Source: Phormidium tenue FACHB-1050 (lineage in GTDB: Bacteria; Cyanobacteriota; Cyanobacteriia; Pseudanabaenales; Pseudanabaenaceae). From it: a stretch of DNA of 64,000 bases. The position numbers and the translations under genes were made by a program. Where the stretch lies: assembly GCF_014696925.1 (NCBI RefSeq), contig NZ_JACJQY010000003.1:1-64000 (forward strand), given 5' to 3'. Below are positions 46,595 through 58,460 of the stretch, in pieces. Below the pieces are notes generated by a model, which searched no databases, was not told the origin of the DNA, and worked only from the letters and a program-made list of their open reading frames with translations. Within the stretch, counting starts at the first letter, position 1, and each line of letters opens with the position of its first letter.

Positions 46595-46623
46595 AAAAAA
46601 GCGGTGCAATACACTGCTTTTTT
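46595..46623. terminator. Bidirectional terminator
   Basis: AAAAAGCGGTGCAATACACT then GCTTTTT, with one G-T pair, between convergent genes. Confidence 0.75.
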
Positions 46624-47209
46624 ATGCTCCAAACGCTAAAACTTGCTCGACAGTTAGAGCAAAGCCATCAACTACTGTTGATGAAATTTGCATTTCACCT
46701 GTATAAATCTTGTCCTCATATTGCCCTTCCACCCATAGGCATATGGTAATTTGGCGCATTTCAGGATCGATAATCCAATATTCGTTAATGCCTCTAGCTG
46801 CATACTCTGTACGCTTATAGCGATAGTCGCGATCTCGATTCTCCTGCCCAGGAGAAACAACTTCGACCACCAAAACAGGCGGTGGTATCACCATTGAAAC
46901 AAAATTACGTGACGATGCTTGTAAATATGCTGCCGATTCTTCAGTCACTATCATGAGATCTGGTATACGACAGGTTGATCTTTTTCCTGACACTGCAATT
47001 TCAGTATTGTAAAGAATCAAGGCAAGCGGTATATATTTAGCAAATTCAAACAGTAAAAACTTAGCAATACTAATGTTCCCAAAGGATTCTGTGGGCATTT
47101 TGACTAATTCTCCGTTGACTAGCTCATAGCGTGTATCTGTCCCATCGTCATAGTTGAGATACCCTTCTATGGTCATTAGGGTAGAGGGGCTAGCTGTAGC
47201 TAAAGTCAT
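46622..47209 (-). CDS. Uma2-family (DUF820) nuclease-like protein
   Basis: 195 residues. The restriction-endonuclease-like fold of the Uma2 family is shown by YELVNGELVKMP, RIPDLMIVTEESA, PPVLVVEVVSPGQENRDRDY, RYKRTEYAARGINEYWIIDP. The catalytic pattern D...ExV is present (PDLMIV and VEVVSP). The family is very abundant in cyanobacteria, with unproven function. A second copy lies at 51062 and a remnant at 49545. Confidence 0.85.
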   Translation of the reverse strand: MTLATASPSTLMTIEGYLNYDDGTDTRYELVNGELVKMPTESFGNISIAKFLLFEFAKYIPLALILYNTEIAVSGKRSTCRIPDLMIVTEESAAYLQASSRNFVSMVIPPPVLVVEVVSPGQENRDRDYRYKRTEYAARGINEYWIIDPEMRQITICLWVEGQYEDKIYTGEMQISSTVVDGFALTVEQVLAFGA

Positions 47210-47364: not shown

Positions 47365-47574
47365 GTACTACTTAAAGCCTCAATAAACTGTAAGTATTGT
47401 GTAATTCTAGTATTACTAAAGATGGTGGAATTTTAAGTTTAGGATGGGTGGCGCTTCACGCTACACACCCTAAACTCCAGAAGCGATATATCGTGATTGC
47501 TAGCAAATTTTAAAAACTCAAATCTCCGCTCTATAATAGCCACATCTAGATTAAGGAAGCCCCAAAATCAAACT

Positions 47575-49536
47575 ATGACAAAATTTGACTTTCTATCAGA
47601 TATTCAAAAACCTTGGCACTACATGGACGTAGAGCAAGTATTGGCAGCTTTGGAATCTTCGATAGAAGGTTTATCATATGTTAATGCGCGGCAAAGATTG
47701 CGGCATTTGGGAGCCAATAAACTACCGCGATCGCGTCCCATCGGCAAGGTTCTCTTACAACCTTTAATCAATCCTTTAACTTATCTTTTATTAGGATCAG
47801 CAATTTATTTGCAATGGAATGGAGCTGAAGGATGGGCGCTAATTTCTGTAGGGGTATTGCATAGCATAACTGGGCTTGGAATTTCATTATGGTCAATTAA
47901 GACCAAAGAGAAGGTCAGTCGTGATCGCCCTCAGCGTCGTCAAAATGCTCCATCCAATTCAGTGATTGTATTGCGCGATTGTGAAGAGATGGAACTGCCA
48001 TCGCGGGATTTGGTATTAGGTGATATTTTAGTGCTGCGCGAAGGCGATCGCCCGAATGTGGATTTGCGCGTACTAGAGACATCAGAGGATTTACTAGTAA
48101 ATCAAACTAATTTAGGCGGTGAAGCAATTTGCGCTAAGCGAGCTGAGCTTACTTTTGAAGAAAAAACTCCACCCCTTGAATGCAGCAATATGATCTATGC
48201 GGGAACAGAAATTTCCACAGGAACCGTGAAAGGTATTGTGATTGCAACAAGTCGTTTCACCCAAGAACAAGCAGCTCTAATCAAAGAGAAGCCATTTTCA
48301 GTTATCCATTCTGAATTGCGTCAACTACGTCAAGTCTGGATTGGGATGTTGCTGTTAGTGACAACTACGGCGGTCGGCTTTGCATGGCAACGCGGAATTA
48401 CGATCAATGCGATGACTGCTGCCGCTTTAATTGTGAGTACCTATCCTCAAAATTTATTACGCATTGCAACACAAGTCCAATTATTGGGGATGTGCGATCT
48501 TGCCAAACAGAGAATATGGGTGCGGTTTCCTTCTGTCTTAGATGCGATCGCCAGAGTAACTAAAATTGTGCCAATAGTCGAGTCGGATGTGGTGTTGAGC
48601 TTTGATGATTTGAGTCGGGCTGGCATTGAGTGGAGAGGACTGATCAGAGCTTCTGAAGATGATGCAGCCGCATTTAGTGAAGTAATTGGTATTGAAACCC
48701 ATAGTTATTTTGATGCACCTCAAGAGCGGATTCGCCAATGGCAAAGAGAATCCTCCCAATTTAGCCAAAAGCCTTTAAAAGCAGTTGCTGTAATTGGGAA
48801 TGATATTGAAGATATTCCTCTGTTCAGATCCGCCGATGTCGGAATCTGCGATCGCACTTGTCGCAAAGAATTACAAGATAGTTCAGCACTAATTTTACCG
48901 AAGGAAGACTTCCATTATTTACCGATCGCGATTCTTGAAGGAAGAGCTACCTTTGATCGGTTGCAACGGATCGCCTTACTTACAGCTACAAGTTCCTTTA
49001 CGCTAGCTGTACTAACCCTAATGGATACCGCCGCAGGGTTTTCTATACCACCATTGCAATTAATCTGGGTCGGTGCAATCGCTACCCCACTTGTTGCTTT
49101 TCCTCTCGCTCTTGAACCTACCCATGAGAGTCTGCTATCTCAACCAGCACATCGTTTTCAAACCATGTTGCGTCCAAGTAATTACCTCCGCATTTTGCTA
49201 ACTGTAACCGCGACGATTACTGCCATTTCCCTAGTCTTCTGGCTAAAGTATCAAGGTCAACCCTCGCTATTTTCTCAAGCGCGATCTATGGCTTTTGTCA
49301 CCCTTGGTTTCAGTCAGATTTTTCATGCCTGTGCGATCGCTCGTCAAAGTGTATTTAGCAACTTGCCACTGATTCTTGGCATATCCTTTATTACTATTTG
49401 TCAAATAGCCTTTGTGCAAGTTCCTTGGTTTGGCGATCTGATGTCAACGGTTCCCTTAAATGGTGTTGAATGGGCGATCGCAGTTCTCAGTGCTACTGCT
49501 GTTTTTTGGGTGCAAGAACTAATCAAAACGAGCTAG
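47575..49536 (+). CDS. P-type ATPase-like protein lacking the catalytic core (pseudo-ATPase)
   Basis: 653 residues from ATG 47575 (AAGGAAG upstream). It has the layout of P2-type cation ATPases with ten predicted membrane helices. The cation ATPase N-domain (VEQVLAALESSIEGLSYVNA) and the actuator domain (LPSRDLVLGDILVLREGDRP) are recognisable. The TGES loop is GGEA (near 48115). M4 keeps a PQNLL motif for PEGL (near 48443). The phosphorylation motif DKTGT is absent: where it should be (near 48575) the sequence is IVPIVESDVV. Only about 90 residues remain between there and VIGNDIEDIP (near 48793), so the nucleotide-binding domain is missing. The frame is intact over the full length, arguing for a retained non-enzymatic protein rather than decay. 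Confidence 0.75.
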   Translation: MTKFDFLSDIQKPWHYMDVEQVLAALESSIEGLSYVNARQRLRHLGANKLPRSRPIGKVLLQPLINPLTYLLLGSAIYLQWNGAEGWALISVGVLHSITGLGISLWSIKTKEKVSRDRPQRRQNAPSNSVIVLRDCEEMELPSRDLVLGDILVLREGDRPNVDLRVLETSEDLLVNQTNLGGEAICAKRAELTFEEKTPPLECSNMIYAGTEISTGTVKGIVIATSRFTQEQAALIKEKPFSVIHSELRQLRQVWIGMLLLVTTTAVGFAWQRGITINAMTAAALIVSTYPQNLLRIATQVQLLGMCDLAKQRIWVRFPSVLDAIARVTKIVPIVESDVVLSFDDLSRAGIEWRGLIRASEDDAAAFSEVIGIETHSYFDAPQERIRQWQRESSQFSQKPLKAVAVIGNDIEDIPLFRSADVGICDRTCRKELQDSSALILPKEDFHYLPIAILEGRATFDRLQRIALLTATSSFTLAVLTLMDTAAGFSIPPLQLIWVGAIATPLVAFPLALEPTHESLLSQPAHRFQTMLRPSNYLRILLTVTATITAISLVFWLKYQGQPSLFSQARSMAFVTLGFSQIFHACAIARQSVFSNLPLILGISFITICQIAFVQVPWFGDLMSTVPLNGVEWAIAVLSATAVFWVQELIKTS

Positions 49537-49715: not shown

Positions 49716-51035
49716 ATGAGCTTAATGCCTAAGCATTTACCGAAAACTGCTGCCTTTTTAGAACGTAACGCCCAAATGCCCTCTAGAAAAACATCTCTAA
49801 GGCAATGGTGTTTTTTTTCATGCTTGACGATCGCTTTGCTGTCAGGATGCCAACCAGCACCAACTCCAAGCACCACAGTCACACCAACTGCGACGGCGAC
49901 CCCAACGGCAACGACCACCATCAAAGATAAAGCTCCAGAGGGGATTTTAGAACGGGTGAAAGCTCGCGGTAAGCTAATCTGTGGTGTAAATGGTAAGTTA
50001 TCTGGTTTTAGCTACGTTGACGAAAAAGGGGTATGGAGTGGCTTAGATGTAGACTATTGCCAAGCGATCGCGGCGGCAGTCTTGGGGGATGCCAAAGCGG
50101 TTGAGTTTAAACCATTGCTAGCCAAGGATCGCTTTGCAGCGATCCAAAGTGGGGAAATCGATGTCTTGATGCGAAATACGACCCGCACTCTAACCCGTGA
50201 TGTCGCTACGAATATTTCCTTTGCGCCTACAACTTTTTTTGATGGTCAGGGTGTAATGCTCAGAATTGGGGCAAAACCAACAGCTTCTCCGACGAGTTCG
50301 CCCAGTTCCGCAACTTCTGTGTCGCCTTCACCAACCGCCTCGGCTTCTCCCACTCCTAGTCCTACTAGTACACCTTCCGCCGACAAAGAGAGGAACAAAA
50401 CGGAGCAACAAACACCTAAAACCACTGAAGAATTGGCGATCTCGCTCAAAGAACTGACAGACAAAAAAATCTGTGTGGAAACAGGTATCAACGCCACCAA
50501 TCTGGAATCTACATTCAAAGAAGCAAATATAGCGATCGAGTCCATTATTTTGCCTGATCTCGATGAAGTCTTGAATGCTTATTCAAAAGGTGATTGCGAA
50601 GCAATTTCTTCGGAAAAATCACAACTTGCAGCATGGAGAAGTAAGTTACCTCGTCCTGCCGATCACAAAATTCTCGATCTGAGTTTATCGAGGGAACCCC
50701 TTAGCCCAGCCCTAGTTGGTAATGATGATCGCTGGCGGGATGTGGTGACATGGATAATCTATGCCACCTTCTACGCCGATGAATTGGGTATTAATATGAA
50801 TAATTACACGATTTTTAAGGATACTAAAAATCCTGAGGTGGCGAGATTTCTTGGCACATCTGACTCTTTGGGGATTGAGCTGGGACTTGCTCCTGATTGG
50901 ACTACCCAAATTCTTAAGCAAGTGGGAAATTACAGTGATATCTACAATCGCAATCTTGCGCCCCTAGATATTCCCCGTGGTCTAAATCGCACTTGGAAGC
51001 AAGGTGGTTTGCTCTATTCGATGCCATTTCGTTAA
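49716..51035 (+). CDS. Amino-acid ABC transporter substrate-binding lipoprotein with hinge insert
   Basis: 439 residues. A lipobox LLSGC predicts a lipid-anchored mature protein. A Thr/Pro/Ala-rich tether follows, then an SBP_bac_3-type domain: GILERVKARGKLICGVNGKL, FDGQGVML, then after an insert KICVETGINATNLESTF, and LSREPLSPALVGNDDRWRDV. It resembles AapJ/BztA-type general amino-acid binding proteins. Between the two lobes (about residues 188-250) is a Pro/Ser/Thr-rich insert of about 60 residues. No permease or ATPase gene is adjacent. The ligand is unknown. Confidence 0.85.
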   Translation: MSLMPKHLPKTAAFLERNAQMPSRKTSLRQWCFFSCLTIALLSGCQPAPTPSTTVTPTATATPTATTTIKDKAPEGILERVKARGKLICGVNGKLSGFSYVDEKGVWSGLDVDYCQAIAAAVLGDAKAVEFKPLLAKDRFAAIQSGEIDVLMRNTTRTLTRDVATNISFAPTTFFDGQGVMLRIGAKPTASPTSSPSSATSVSPSPTASASPTPSPTSTPSADKERNKTEQQTPKTTEELAISLKELTDKKICVETGINATNLESTFKEANIAIESIILPDLDEVLNAYSKGDCEAISSEKSQLAAWRSKLPRPADHKILDLSLSREPLSPALVGNDDRWRDVVTWIIYATFYADELGINMNNYTIFKDTKNPEVARFLGTSDSLGIELGLAPDWTTQILKQVGNYSDIYNRNLAPLDIPRGLNRTWKQGGLLYSMPFR

Positions 51036-51061
51036 ATGCGGCAGTAAATGCAGAGGTATTT

Positions 51062-51682
51062 ATGTTTCAAACTGCGACTAGGGAAATTACCTTTGAAGAG
51101 TTTCTCGATTGGTATCCCGATGGCTATGGCCGTTATGAACTTTATGATGGAGCGATCGTCGAAATGCAGCCAACAGGAACCCATGAACAAGTAGGCGGTT
51201 TTACGGCGACAAAATTAGCAGTAGAAATTGATCGCTACTCCATGGATTGCTTCATTCCCCGTCAAGCATTTGTGAAACCGATGAATTCTCATCGATCGGG
51301 TTATATTCCTGATGTGATCGTCCTCAATCAAGCAGCCTTAGAATTTGAACCCCTGTGGAAAAAACGTTCCACCATTACTAAAGGCGAAACAATTAGGTTG
51401 GCGATTGAGGTAGTTAGTACCAACTGGCAAGATGACTATTTAACGAAGTTGAGAGACTATGAAGCTTTAAGTATCCCTGAATATTGGATTATTGATTATC
51501 TTGGCTTGGGTGGGCGGCGCTATATCGGTTTTCCAAAACAGCCAACCTTATCGATTTATAGTCTTGTCGATGGGGAATATGAAGTACAACAATTTCGAGG
51601 TGGCGATCGCTTGATATCGAACGCTTTCCCACAGCTAACGTTAACCGCAGAGCAAATTTTTAATTCGGGTAAAGATTTTTGA
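51062..51682 (+). CDS. Uma2-family (DUF820) nuclease-like protein
   Basis: 206 residues from ATG 51062. The frame is open further upstream, but that part overlaps the end of the binding protein gene. Motifs: YELYDGAIVEMQPTGTHEQV, GYIPDVIVLNQAAL, LAIEVVSTNWQDDYLTKLRD, YEALSIPEYWIIDYLGLG. It starts 26 bases after the previous stop. A second member lies at 46622, divergent in sequence. Confidence 0.85.
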   Translation: MFQTATREITFEEFLDWYPDGYGRYELYDGAIVEMQPTGTHEQVGGFTATKLAVEIDRYSMDCFIPRQAFVKPMNSHRSGYIPDVIVLNQAALEFEPLWKKRSTITKGETIRLAIEVVSTNWQDDYLTKLRDYEALSIPEYWIIDYLGLGGRRYIGFPKQPTLSIYSLVDGEYEVQQFRGGDRLISNAFPQLTLTAEQIFNSGKDF

Positions 51683-57688: not shown

Positions 57689-57723
57689 AATGACAAAGGC
57701 TCGCAAAGCGAGCCTTTGTCATT
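57689..57723 (-). terminator. Terminator after cysH
   Basis: AATGACAAAGGCTCGC-AAA-complement, overlapping the cysH stop at 57723. Confidence 0.85.
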
Positions 57724-58460
57724 TATTCGCCTTTTGCACGAACTAAACGACCGTCACTGGTGACATGCAATCCGCATTCTTGGTTACTCATCTCCCACCA
57801 CCAACGACCAGCACGAAGATCTTCACCCGCTTGGACGGCTCTCGTACAAGGCGCACAACCAATGCTAGGGAAGTTCTGATCATGGAGGGCATTATAGGGA
57901 ACCTCATTGGCATGAATGTATTCCCAAACTTGATCATTTGTCCAATCAATCAAAGGATTAATCTTGGCAATGTTGCGATCGCCATCTAGCTCAACAGTCT
58001 CCATTGTGGAACGGTTAGCGGTTTGGTCGCGACGTAACCCTGTAATCCAAGCATCTAGCCCTTTAGTCGCACGACCAAGAGGCTCTACCTTGCGAATGTA
58101 ACAACATTGCTTGCGATTTTCTACGCTGTCATAAAACAGATTAATTCCCTTAGCACTAACCATCTTCTCCACGTCTTCAGCCTGTGGAAACATGATTCGC
58201 AATTGGAGTTGAGGATATTTTTGTTGGACTTTGGCAATTACTTCATAGGTTTCAGCATTCAATCGACCTGTATCAAGGGTGAACACATCGGCATCGGGCT
58301 TGATTTTGGCGATCATATCGATCAAGGCGACATCTTCGGCTCCAAAGCTCGAAGCTAGTGAGATCTTTTTATAGTTACCGAGCGCCCATGTGAGTACTTC
58401 TTGAGGGGTTTTGCCCTTGAGTTGAGCGGCGGCGCTGTCAATGTCTGTTTGTAAGGTCAT
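57723..58460 (-). CDS. cysH: Phosphoadenylyl/adenylyl-sulfate reductase
   Basis: 245 residues. The PP-loop ATP-pyrophosphatase-like start is SLASSFGAEDVALIDMIAKI. The sulfur-active cysteine is C229 in QECGLH. Four further cysteines are arranged as the [4Fe-4S] ligand set: C119-C120 (KQCCYIRK) and C202/C205 (GCAPCTR). The cluster is characteristic of enzymes that use adenylyl-sulfate (APS), while cluster-free enzymes use PAPS. The enzyme makes sulfite for cysteine synthesis, taking electrons from thioredoxin or glutaredoxin. Confidence 0.9.
   Translation of the reverse strand: MTLQTDIDSAAAQLKGKTPQEVLTWALGNYKKISLASSFGAEDVALIDMIAKIKPDADVFTLDTGRLNAETYEVIAKVQQKYPQLQLRIMFPQAEDVEKMVSAKGINLFYDSVENRKQCCYIRKVEPLGRATKGLDAWITGLRRDQTANRSTMETVELDGDRNIAKINPLIDWTNDQVWEYIHANEVPYNALHDQNFPSIGCAPCTRAVQAGEDLRAGRWWWEMSNQECGLHVTSDGRLVRAKGE

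Follow-up and report, generated by a model that had tools for sequence, protein, structure and literature searches.

P-type pumps are a textbook example of a machine that couples ion movement tightly to ATP binding and to the phosphorylation of an aspartate. A gene of Phormidium tenue FACHB-1050, at 47575–49536 (+) of the 64,000-nucleotide stretch analysed here (the window, from a genome of 5.6 Mb), raises the question of what such a machine is kept for once its ATP-binding engine has gone. An initial annotation, made from the letters alone, had read the gene as an intact P-type ATPase relative without the phosphorylation motif DKTGT or the nucleotide-binding (N) domain, and had proposed a maintained pseudoenzyme such as a membrane sensor, chaperone or inhibitor of a true ATPase.

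Domain layout and loss of catalytic and cation-site residues

The frame runs from an ATG at 47575 to a stop codon at 49534–49536 and encodes 653 amino acids uninterrupted by a stop or frameshift; the upstream limit of the open frame is a TTG at 47497. Pfam models for Cation_ATPase_N (PF00690, residues 14–77), E1-E2_ATPase (PF00122, residues 128–312) and Cation_ATPase_C (PF00689, residues 493–651) each matched above their curated cut-offs, and an actuator (A) domain together with P2-type membrane domains places the protein in the P-type ATPase superfamily by descent, as had been claimed. The same search of the 653-residue protein returned no further family, leaving residues 312–493 without a match and no N-domain family anywhere. 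P2A and P3 ATPase models of NCBIfam matched far under their cut-offs (best, PMR1-type, 103.7 bits against a cut-off of 798.3; SERCA-type, 91.0 against 703.4), scores that fall short of a P2A Ca2+ ATPase equivalog. The nearest solved sequence was human SPCA1.

All parts of the gene lie on the forward strand. The N-terminal domain (47575–47739, residues 1–55), located by its Pfam match and conservation, carries WH and GLSYVxARQRLR motifs, with 14 of its 55 positions invariant. Alignment columns and the E1-E2_ATPase match define the A domain (47899–48303, residues 109–243), in which GGEA replaces the TGES loop, and columns also define M4 (48400–48474, residues 276–300), where YPQNLLRIAT, including an invariant Arg296, replaces the PEGLP region. 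The P domain follows as a HAD core without an N domain (48496–48990, residues 308–472), delimited by a separate model, an overlay on CopA, alignment columns and a profile search, and M5–M10 (48937–49536, residues 455–653) complete the protein, with the cation-site residues replaced. A ten-helix layout had been proposed for the membrane part. Helices of a full-length AlphaFold model fit M1–M10 at low confidence, with a break at Tyr290–Pro291 in M4, and a simple hydropathy scan found nine regions, missing M4 at its threshold. M4, M6, M8 and M10 were among the better conserved parts of the protein (mean 0.85–0.87).

Motif counts were made on 30 aligned full-length sequences of similar length, the window's included, and columns were compared with true enzymes using 10 representatives (8 non-g3 and 2 from g3, a diverged clade described below) and 14 true ATPases. 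A fragment from genome G035 and a split copy from G002 were left out of the main alignment and tree, and C-terminal codons of the G010 copy were trimmed from a TAG onward. We take the labels E309, D351, D703, D707, N768, E771, N796 and D800 to follow SERCA numbering. DKTGT occurred in none of the 30 sequences, which therefore lack the phosphorylation motif of an ATPase enzyme, and its K-T-G-T columns were gapped in all 10 representatives. The D351 column was a gap in 8 of these 10 and Asp in both g3 sequences; read by eye without the gap, the D351 place in the main family is residue 334, which was Ile, Leu or Val in 30/30. The N domain of the enzyme was likewise gone, as seen from the missing Pfam family, a gap in the alignment and a HAD core model without an insert. 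No sequence had TGES; the loop read GGE in 23, GGD in 5, SGG in 1 and GSM in 1, so its Glu was kept in 23/30 and was Asp in 5/30. Of the remaining catalytic positions, the TGD columns were gapped in the representative alignment, the motif Lys column was not conserved but held a basic residue in 26/30 (Arg in 19, Lys in 7), the D707 column was Asp in 27 and Glu in 3, and the D703 column varied freely (Asn in 20/30, seven other residues in the remaining 10). GNDIEDIP, the GDGxND-like remnant that was one of the features from which the family had been recognized, was present and varied among the aligned sequences.

The M4 Glu of PEGL, noted as Gln in the window, was Gln in 29/30 and Lys in the other. 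Cation ligands were replaced in all 10 representatives, none of which retained the P2A ligand set of M4, M5 and M6. In the eight non-g3 representatives, E309 was Gln (one Lys), N768 was Ser or Ala (one Leu), E771 was Leu (Ile and Thr once each), N796 was Gly and D800 was Thr. Across the 10, the M4 Glu became Gln, Lys or Trp, the M5 Asn and Glu became small, aliphatic or Thr residues, and the M6 Asn and Asp became Gly and Thr in non-g3 sequences and Ser/Ala and Pro in g3. A different set of positions was fixed: Tyr290, Pro291, Arg296, Thr299, Ser337, Arg358, Glu384 and Arg387 were invariant in 30/30, Glu336 and Asp338 were conserved in 29/30, Asp410 in 28/30 and Asp413 in 27/30, and in M6 Thr504 and Pro505 were each present in 29/30. 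By sequence, descent from P2 ATPases combined with loss of the enzyme's defining features makes the protein a pseudo-ATPase. We infer that it is catalytically inactive, with no ATP binding of the known mode, no phosphorylation of a motif aspartate and no pump cycle, and that it would no longer hold the usual Ca2+-type membrane ligands.

The fold of the P domain

The full-length AlphaFold model was weak (mean pLDDT 58.7, pTM 0.43) and showed strands at the place of the A domain, a HAD-like P domain and no N domain, in line with what structure prediction had been expected to give. Foldseek placed this model closest to SPCA1 and a Listeria Ca2+ ATPase at low query TM-scores (around 0.4), and its VIA-align comparison with SPCA1a gave a Z of 15.6 but an r.m.s.d. 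of 12.1. Residues 308–472 modelled alone were better defined (pLDDT 74.9, pTM 0.70) and formed a HAD core. This isolated model overlaid the CopA P/N-domain structure with a Z of 12.2 and an r.m.s.d. of 2.6 over 127 aligned residues, which were spread over chain residues 401–670, the pattern to be expected when the alignment skips the N domain. Profile–profile alignment of the P remnant with true P2 ATPases was significant only locally, from residue 381 on; the stretch 335–380 could not be aligned by sequence, so it is the model that assigns its position within the HAD core. The initial annotation had described the P domain as a GDGxND-like remnant; the remnant motif stands, but with residues 308–472 predicted to be a HAD core, the domain appears to be more than a remnant and the main loss to be that of the N domain and DKTGT. 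A HAD fold is thus predicted for the P domain of the family, and the models are most simply read as reflecting excision of the N domain, with the P domain persisting in capless HAD form. In the predicted structure Ser337 and Arg358 come after strands, Arg358 directly after strand 352–357 on the side that bears a HAD active site, and Glu384 and Arg387 lie in helix 382–395; together these four residues may form one pocket.

Such a core invites the alternative that it still carries out phosphate chemistry or phosphate binding, with the membrane part as its anchor or sensor. HAD phosphatases came next after CopA in the overlay search (Z up to 11.0), and with Foldseek the isolated P domain matched KdsC/YrbI-type HAD phosphatases first (best E 2.8e-5, TM 0.54). 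These enzymes, which we take to be capless, are soluble and have a catalytic Asp, whereas here the domain is part of a membrane protein, and no Asp stands at that place in the main family. The basic residue at the motif Lys column and the Asp at the D707 column favour retained chemistry in the main family, as do Asp residues at the D351, D703 and D707 columns in both intact g3 copies (LDLDH and SDTLD stand at the aligned places of the split g3 copy in G002). Against this, the main-family D351 column is gapped, with an aliphatic residue at position 334 when read by eye, the D703 column is free to vary, and g3 is gapped at the motif Lys column. We therefore regard phosphate chemistry as distinctly unlikely for the family as a whole; the persisting catalytic-type residues and the g3 aspartates make residual chemistry possible, most so in g3.

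Distribution, selection and genomic context

A gene of this kind could be a peculiarity of one strain or a fault of one assembly. Searches of 38 Pseudanabaenales genomes (E≤1e-60) found a match in 31, one per genome, comprising 25 of 26 genomes of Pseudanabaena, taken here as the window's genus, and 6 of 12 others, and the same N-less joint was common to 30 genomes. Identity of the aligned members to the protein of the window ranged from 42 to 97%. The seven genomes without a match at this threshold were G028 (82% complete, and the sole Pseudanabaena genome among them), three of g3, two of g5 and one of g7 (77% complete). Re-searching the seven with a profile revealed short frames in g3: G003 and G004 encode diverged versions of 579 and 587 amino acids, and in G002 the copy is divided between two frames; with a g3 protein as the query, the two best Pseudanabaena matches were near full length at 29–30% identity. 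Outside g3, the G035 copy is truncated at the end of its contig and contains a change of frame.

Across an evenly sampled set of 386 cyanobacterial genomes, a full-length profile (E≤1e-50) found the family in 4, all of the window's genus, and a P-domain profile (A3, E≤1e-14) found the same 4; these searches scored no more than 3 and 9 candidates per genome, respectively, and may have missed very diverged copies. A wide cyanobacterial spread, also considered, was not seen in this sample, and matches of the g3 query outside the window's genus covered the A-domain part of frames of 842–999 amino acids. In a 24-sequence tree built on shared columns and rooted at its midpoint by assumption, a long branch with 100% support separated the 10 N-less proteins from the 14 true ATPases; the g3 node was weak (77%) and the g3 branch long. 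The family resembles P2A (PMR1/SPCA- and SERCA-type) Ca2+ ATPases in its N-terminal, A and membrane domains, with SPCA1 the best match among solved sequences and folds, but differs from them in having no N domain, DKTGT, TGES or usual cation ligands and in this fully supported split.

Selection was estimated as Nei–Gojobori dN/dS from pairs with dS of 0.05–1.5 only. Among the 25 Pseudanabaena sequences the median was 0.081 and the maximum 0.115 (143 of 300 pairs usable), close to the 0.069 obtained for a control, a full-length P2 ATPase in 20 genomes of the same genus (104 of 190 pairs). Loss of the catalytic motif under such purifying selection is the signature of a pseudoenzyme, and the orthologues share the deletion, as the initial annotation had anticipated for a maintained one. 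Of the three g3 pairs, G003/G004 gave 0.134 at a dS of 1.5; saturation made the remaining two unusable. A decaying pseudogene or an assembly error, for which the split G002 copy and the contig end and frame change of the G035 copy might speak, is hardly credible for the main family given 30 full-length sequences of similar length and a dN/dS near 0.08; the gene is neither unique to this strain nor under relaxed selection, and an assembly fault would not recur as the same joint in 30 genomes. These results define a family of P2-type ATPase descendants without N domain or DKTGT, found as one match per genome and kept under selection. Without the ATP-binding engine the protein probably cannot pump and, as the gene is nevertheless kept, must do another job.

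Constraint was not confined to one part of the protein: regional dN/dS medians ranged from 0.073 to 0.13, with 0.085 for the P remnant and 0.081 for M5–M10. These values bear on the main rival to a sensor or regulatory role, namely transport without ATP, in which the membrane part would be a passive channel, carrier or lipid-handling or lipid-binding protein, with the A and P domains serving only as its scaffold or gate. In favour of transport, ten membrane helices are predicted and M4, M6, M8 and M10 are better conserved than most parts. The M4 proline kept together with the invariant Arg296, and Thr504 and Pro505 in M6, look more like a new specificity than like decay, and TMEM94, another degenerate P-type relative, holds lipid near M4 (PMC12134183). 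A fixed Arg in M4 and the loss of the acidic ligands argue against cations, however, and a P remnant constrained as tightly as M5–M10 is needless for a plain channel. We consider passive transport rather unlikely.

The N domain and phosphorylation motif might instead be supplied in trans, by a separate protein forming the nucleotide-binding and phosphorylation half of a split enzyme. Such an arrangement would account for the conserved A and P surfaces, and no positive evidence for it was found: all four PF13246 (N-domain) matches in the window's genome lay inside ATPase frames of 730–983 amino acids, and of its 13 DKTGT-coding DNA sites 12 were in frames that also hold GDGxND, the other being in a frame that is presumably a histidine kinase. 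With no separate catalytic half among the PF13246 matches and DKTGT frames of this genome, a split enzyme is very improbable. Full-length paralogues, which the initial annotation had proposed looking for, were found throughout the order, with a P2 ATPase match in 38/38 genomes (E≤1e-60). Two P-type ATPase loci appeared interrupted. Matches to a P-type ATPase at about 2675–4867 of contig C73 in the window's genome (locus L070) fall in two frames of 730 and 896 amino acids, with one TGA inside a match, which suggests a broken gene, and a P2 ATPase of G006 (L067, 1156–3867 (+)) is present as frames of 544 and 342 amino acids with an in-frame TAG between them.

No gene neighbour was constant beside the pseudo-ATPase across the genomes compared. 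A gene of about 450 amino acids with one predicted membrane helix lay directly upstream in 14 of 25 Pseudanabaena genomes (for example L050, 8530–9921 (+)). Every Pseudanabaena genome with a strong match to it (14/14) had this arrangement, and three other genera have the gene elsewhere; a neighbourhood scan gave 12 loci and match coordinates gave the 14 genomes. Neither Pfam (at 0.01) nor NCBIfam (below 0.05) gave a match to its product, and a search of the window's genome found no counterpart of the gene. In the window, two Uma2-family genes closely flank the pseudo-ATPase (46622–47209 (−) and 50993–51682 (+)); in several other genomes the 450-residue gene, missing here, sits between the upstream Uma2 gene and the pseudo-ATPase. 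Also downstream in the window, 49716–51035 (+) encodes a family 3 solute-binding protein of 439 amino acids, whose matched binding domain contains a long stretch rich in Ser, Thr and Pro.

The gene cysH (phosphoadenylyl-sulfate reductase) lies directly upstream of the N-less gene in four order genomes, three of g3 (G002 included) and G035, and in the two intact g3 cases the N-less gene starts 3 nucleotides after it. A pentapeptide-repeat gene precedes cysH in g3. The cysH of the window (57723–58460 (−)) is about 8 kb downstream of the pseudo-ATPase on the opposite strand. Because the adjacency is found in four genomes but in none of the Pseudanabaena loci covered, a tie to sulfate assimilation is a lead only. 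At two g3 loci (L061, 5903–8149 (−), and L062, 1297–3537 (+)), the 3′ end of the pseudo-ATPase overlaps that of a convergent gene of 746–748 amino acids by 50 nucleotides.

A proposed role and the nearest described relative

We propose, at about an even chance, that the protein is a maintained pseudo-P-type ATPase that works in the membrane as a sensor or regulatory partner, independently of ATP, a role suggested by the even constraint over its A, P and membrane parts and by the new invariant polar residues of its P domain. In this view a small ligand or a partner protein would bind the P domain on what was its active-site face, now lined by Ser337, Arg358, Glu384 and Arg387, and the retained linkage of A domain, P domain and membrane would relay that binding to the membrane part, or act in the reverse direction. 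A possible partner is one of the true P2 ATPases of the order genomes. A bolder version is tentative, and we would not expect it to hold in full: the family may be a motorless bacterial class of P-type proteins, with the N domain excised, a capless HAD P domain bearing a re-lined ligand-binding region, and an ATP-free switch from sensor to membrane, g3 being an intermediate in which the N domain was lost before the catalytic aspartate.

The literature search, which covered titles and abstract openings with subscription journals mostly outside its reach, found no bacterial family of pseudo, inactive or degenerate P-type ATPases, and the passages covered of a 2023 review of P-type ATPases do not mention N-less or pseudo members (PMC10654040). 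The nearest described case that we found, likened by its described features, is TMEM94 (ERMA), a human ER protein with a degenerate P-type fold in which TGES is absent and GDGxND is replaced (PMC12134183; PMC13322241). One group saw no ATPase activity or Mg2+ binding (PMC12134183), and another reported ATP-dependent Mg2+ uptake requiring Asp427 (PMC13322241). TMEM94 has retained an N-domain-like part as well as the aspartate, in a DKQGI loop, whereas the present family has no N domain and its main clade no DKTGT, which sets it apart from TMEM94.

Together, these data point to a strongly selected, N-less, pump-like membrane protein that is kept by a group of filamentous cyanobacteria and that probably cannot pump. 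With the engine lost and the rest kept under selection, the family is a natural experiment on the P-type chassis acting alone, and it bears on the dispute over whether TMEM94, with its degenerate P-type fold, is an ATPase. Its aligned members, which span 42 to 97% identity to the protein studied here, and the diverged g3 clade with aspartates in the catalytic columns make it useful for mapping.
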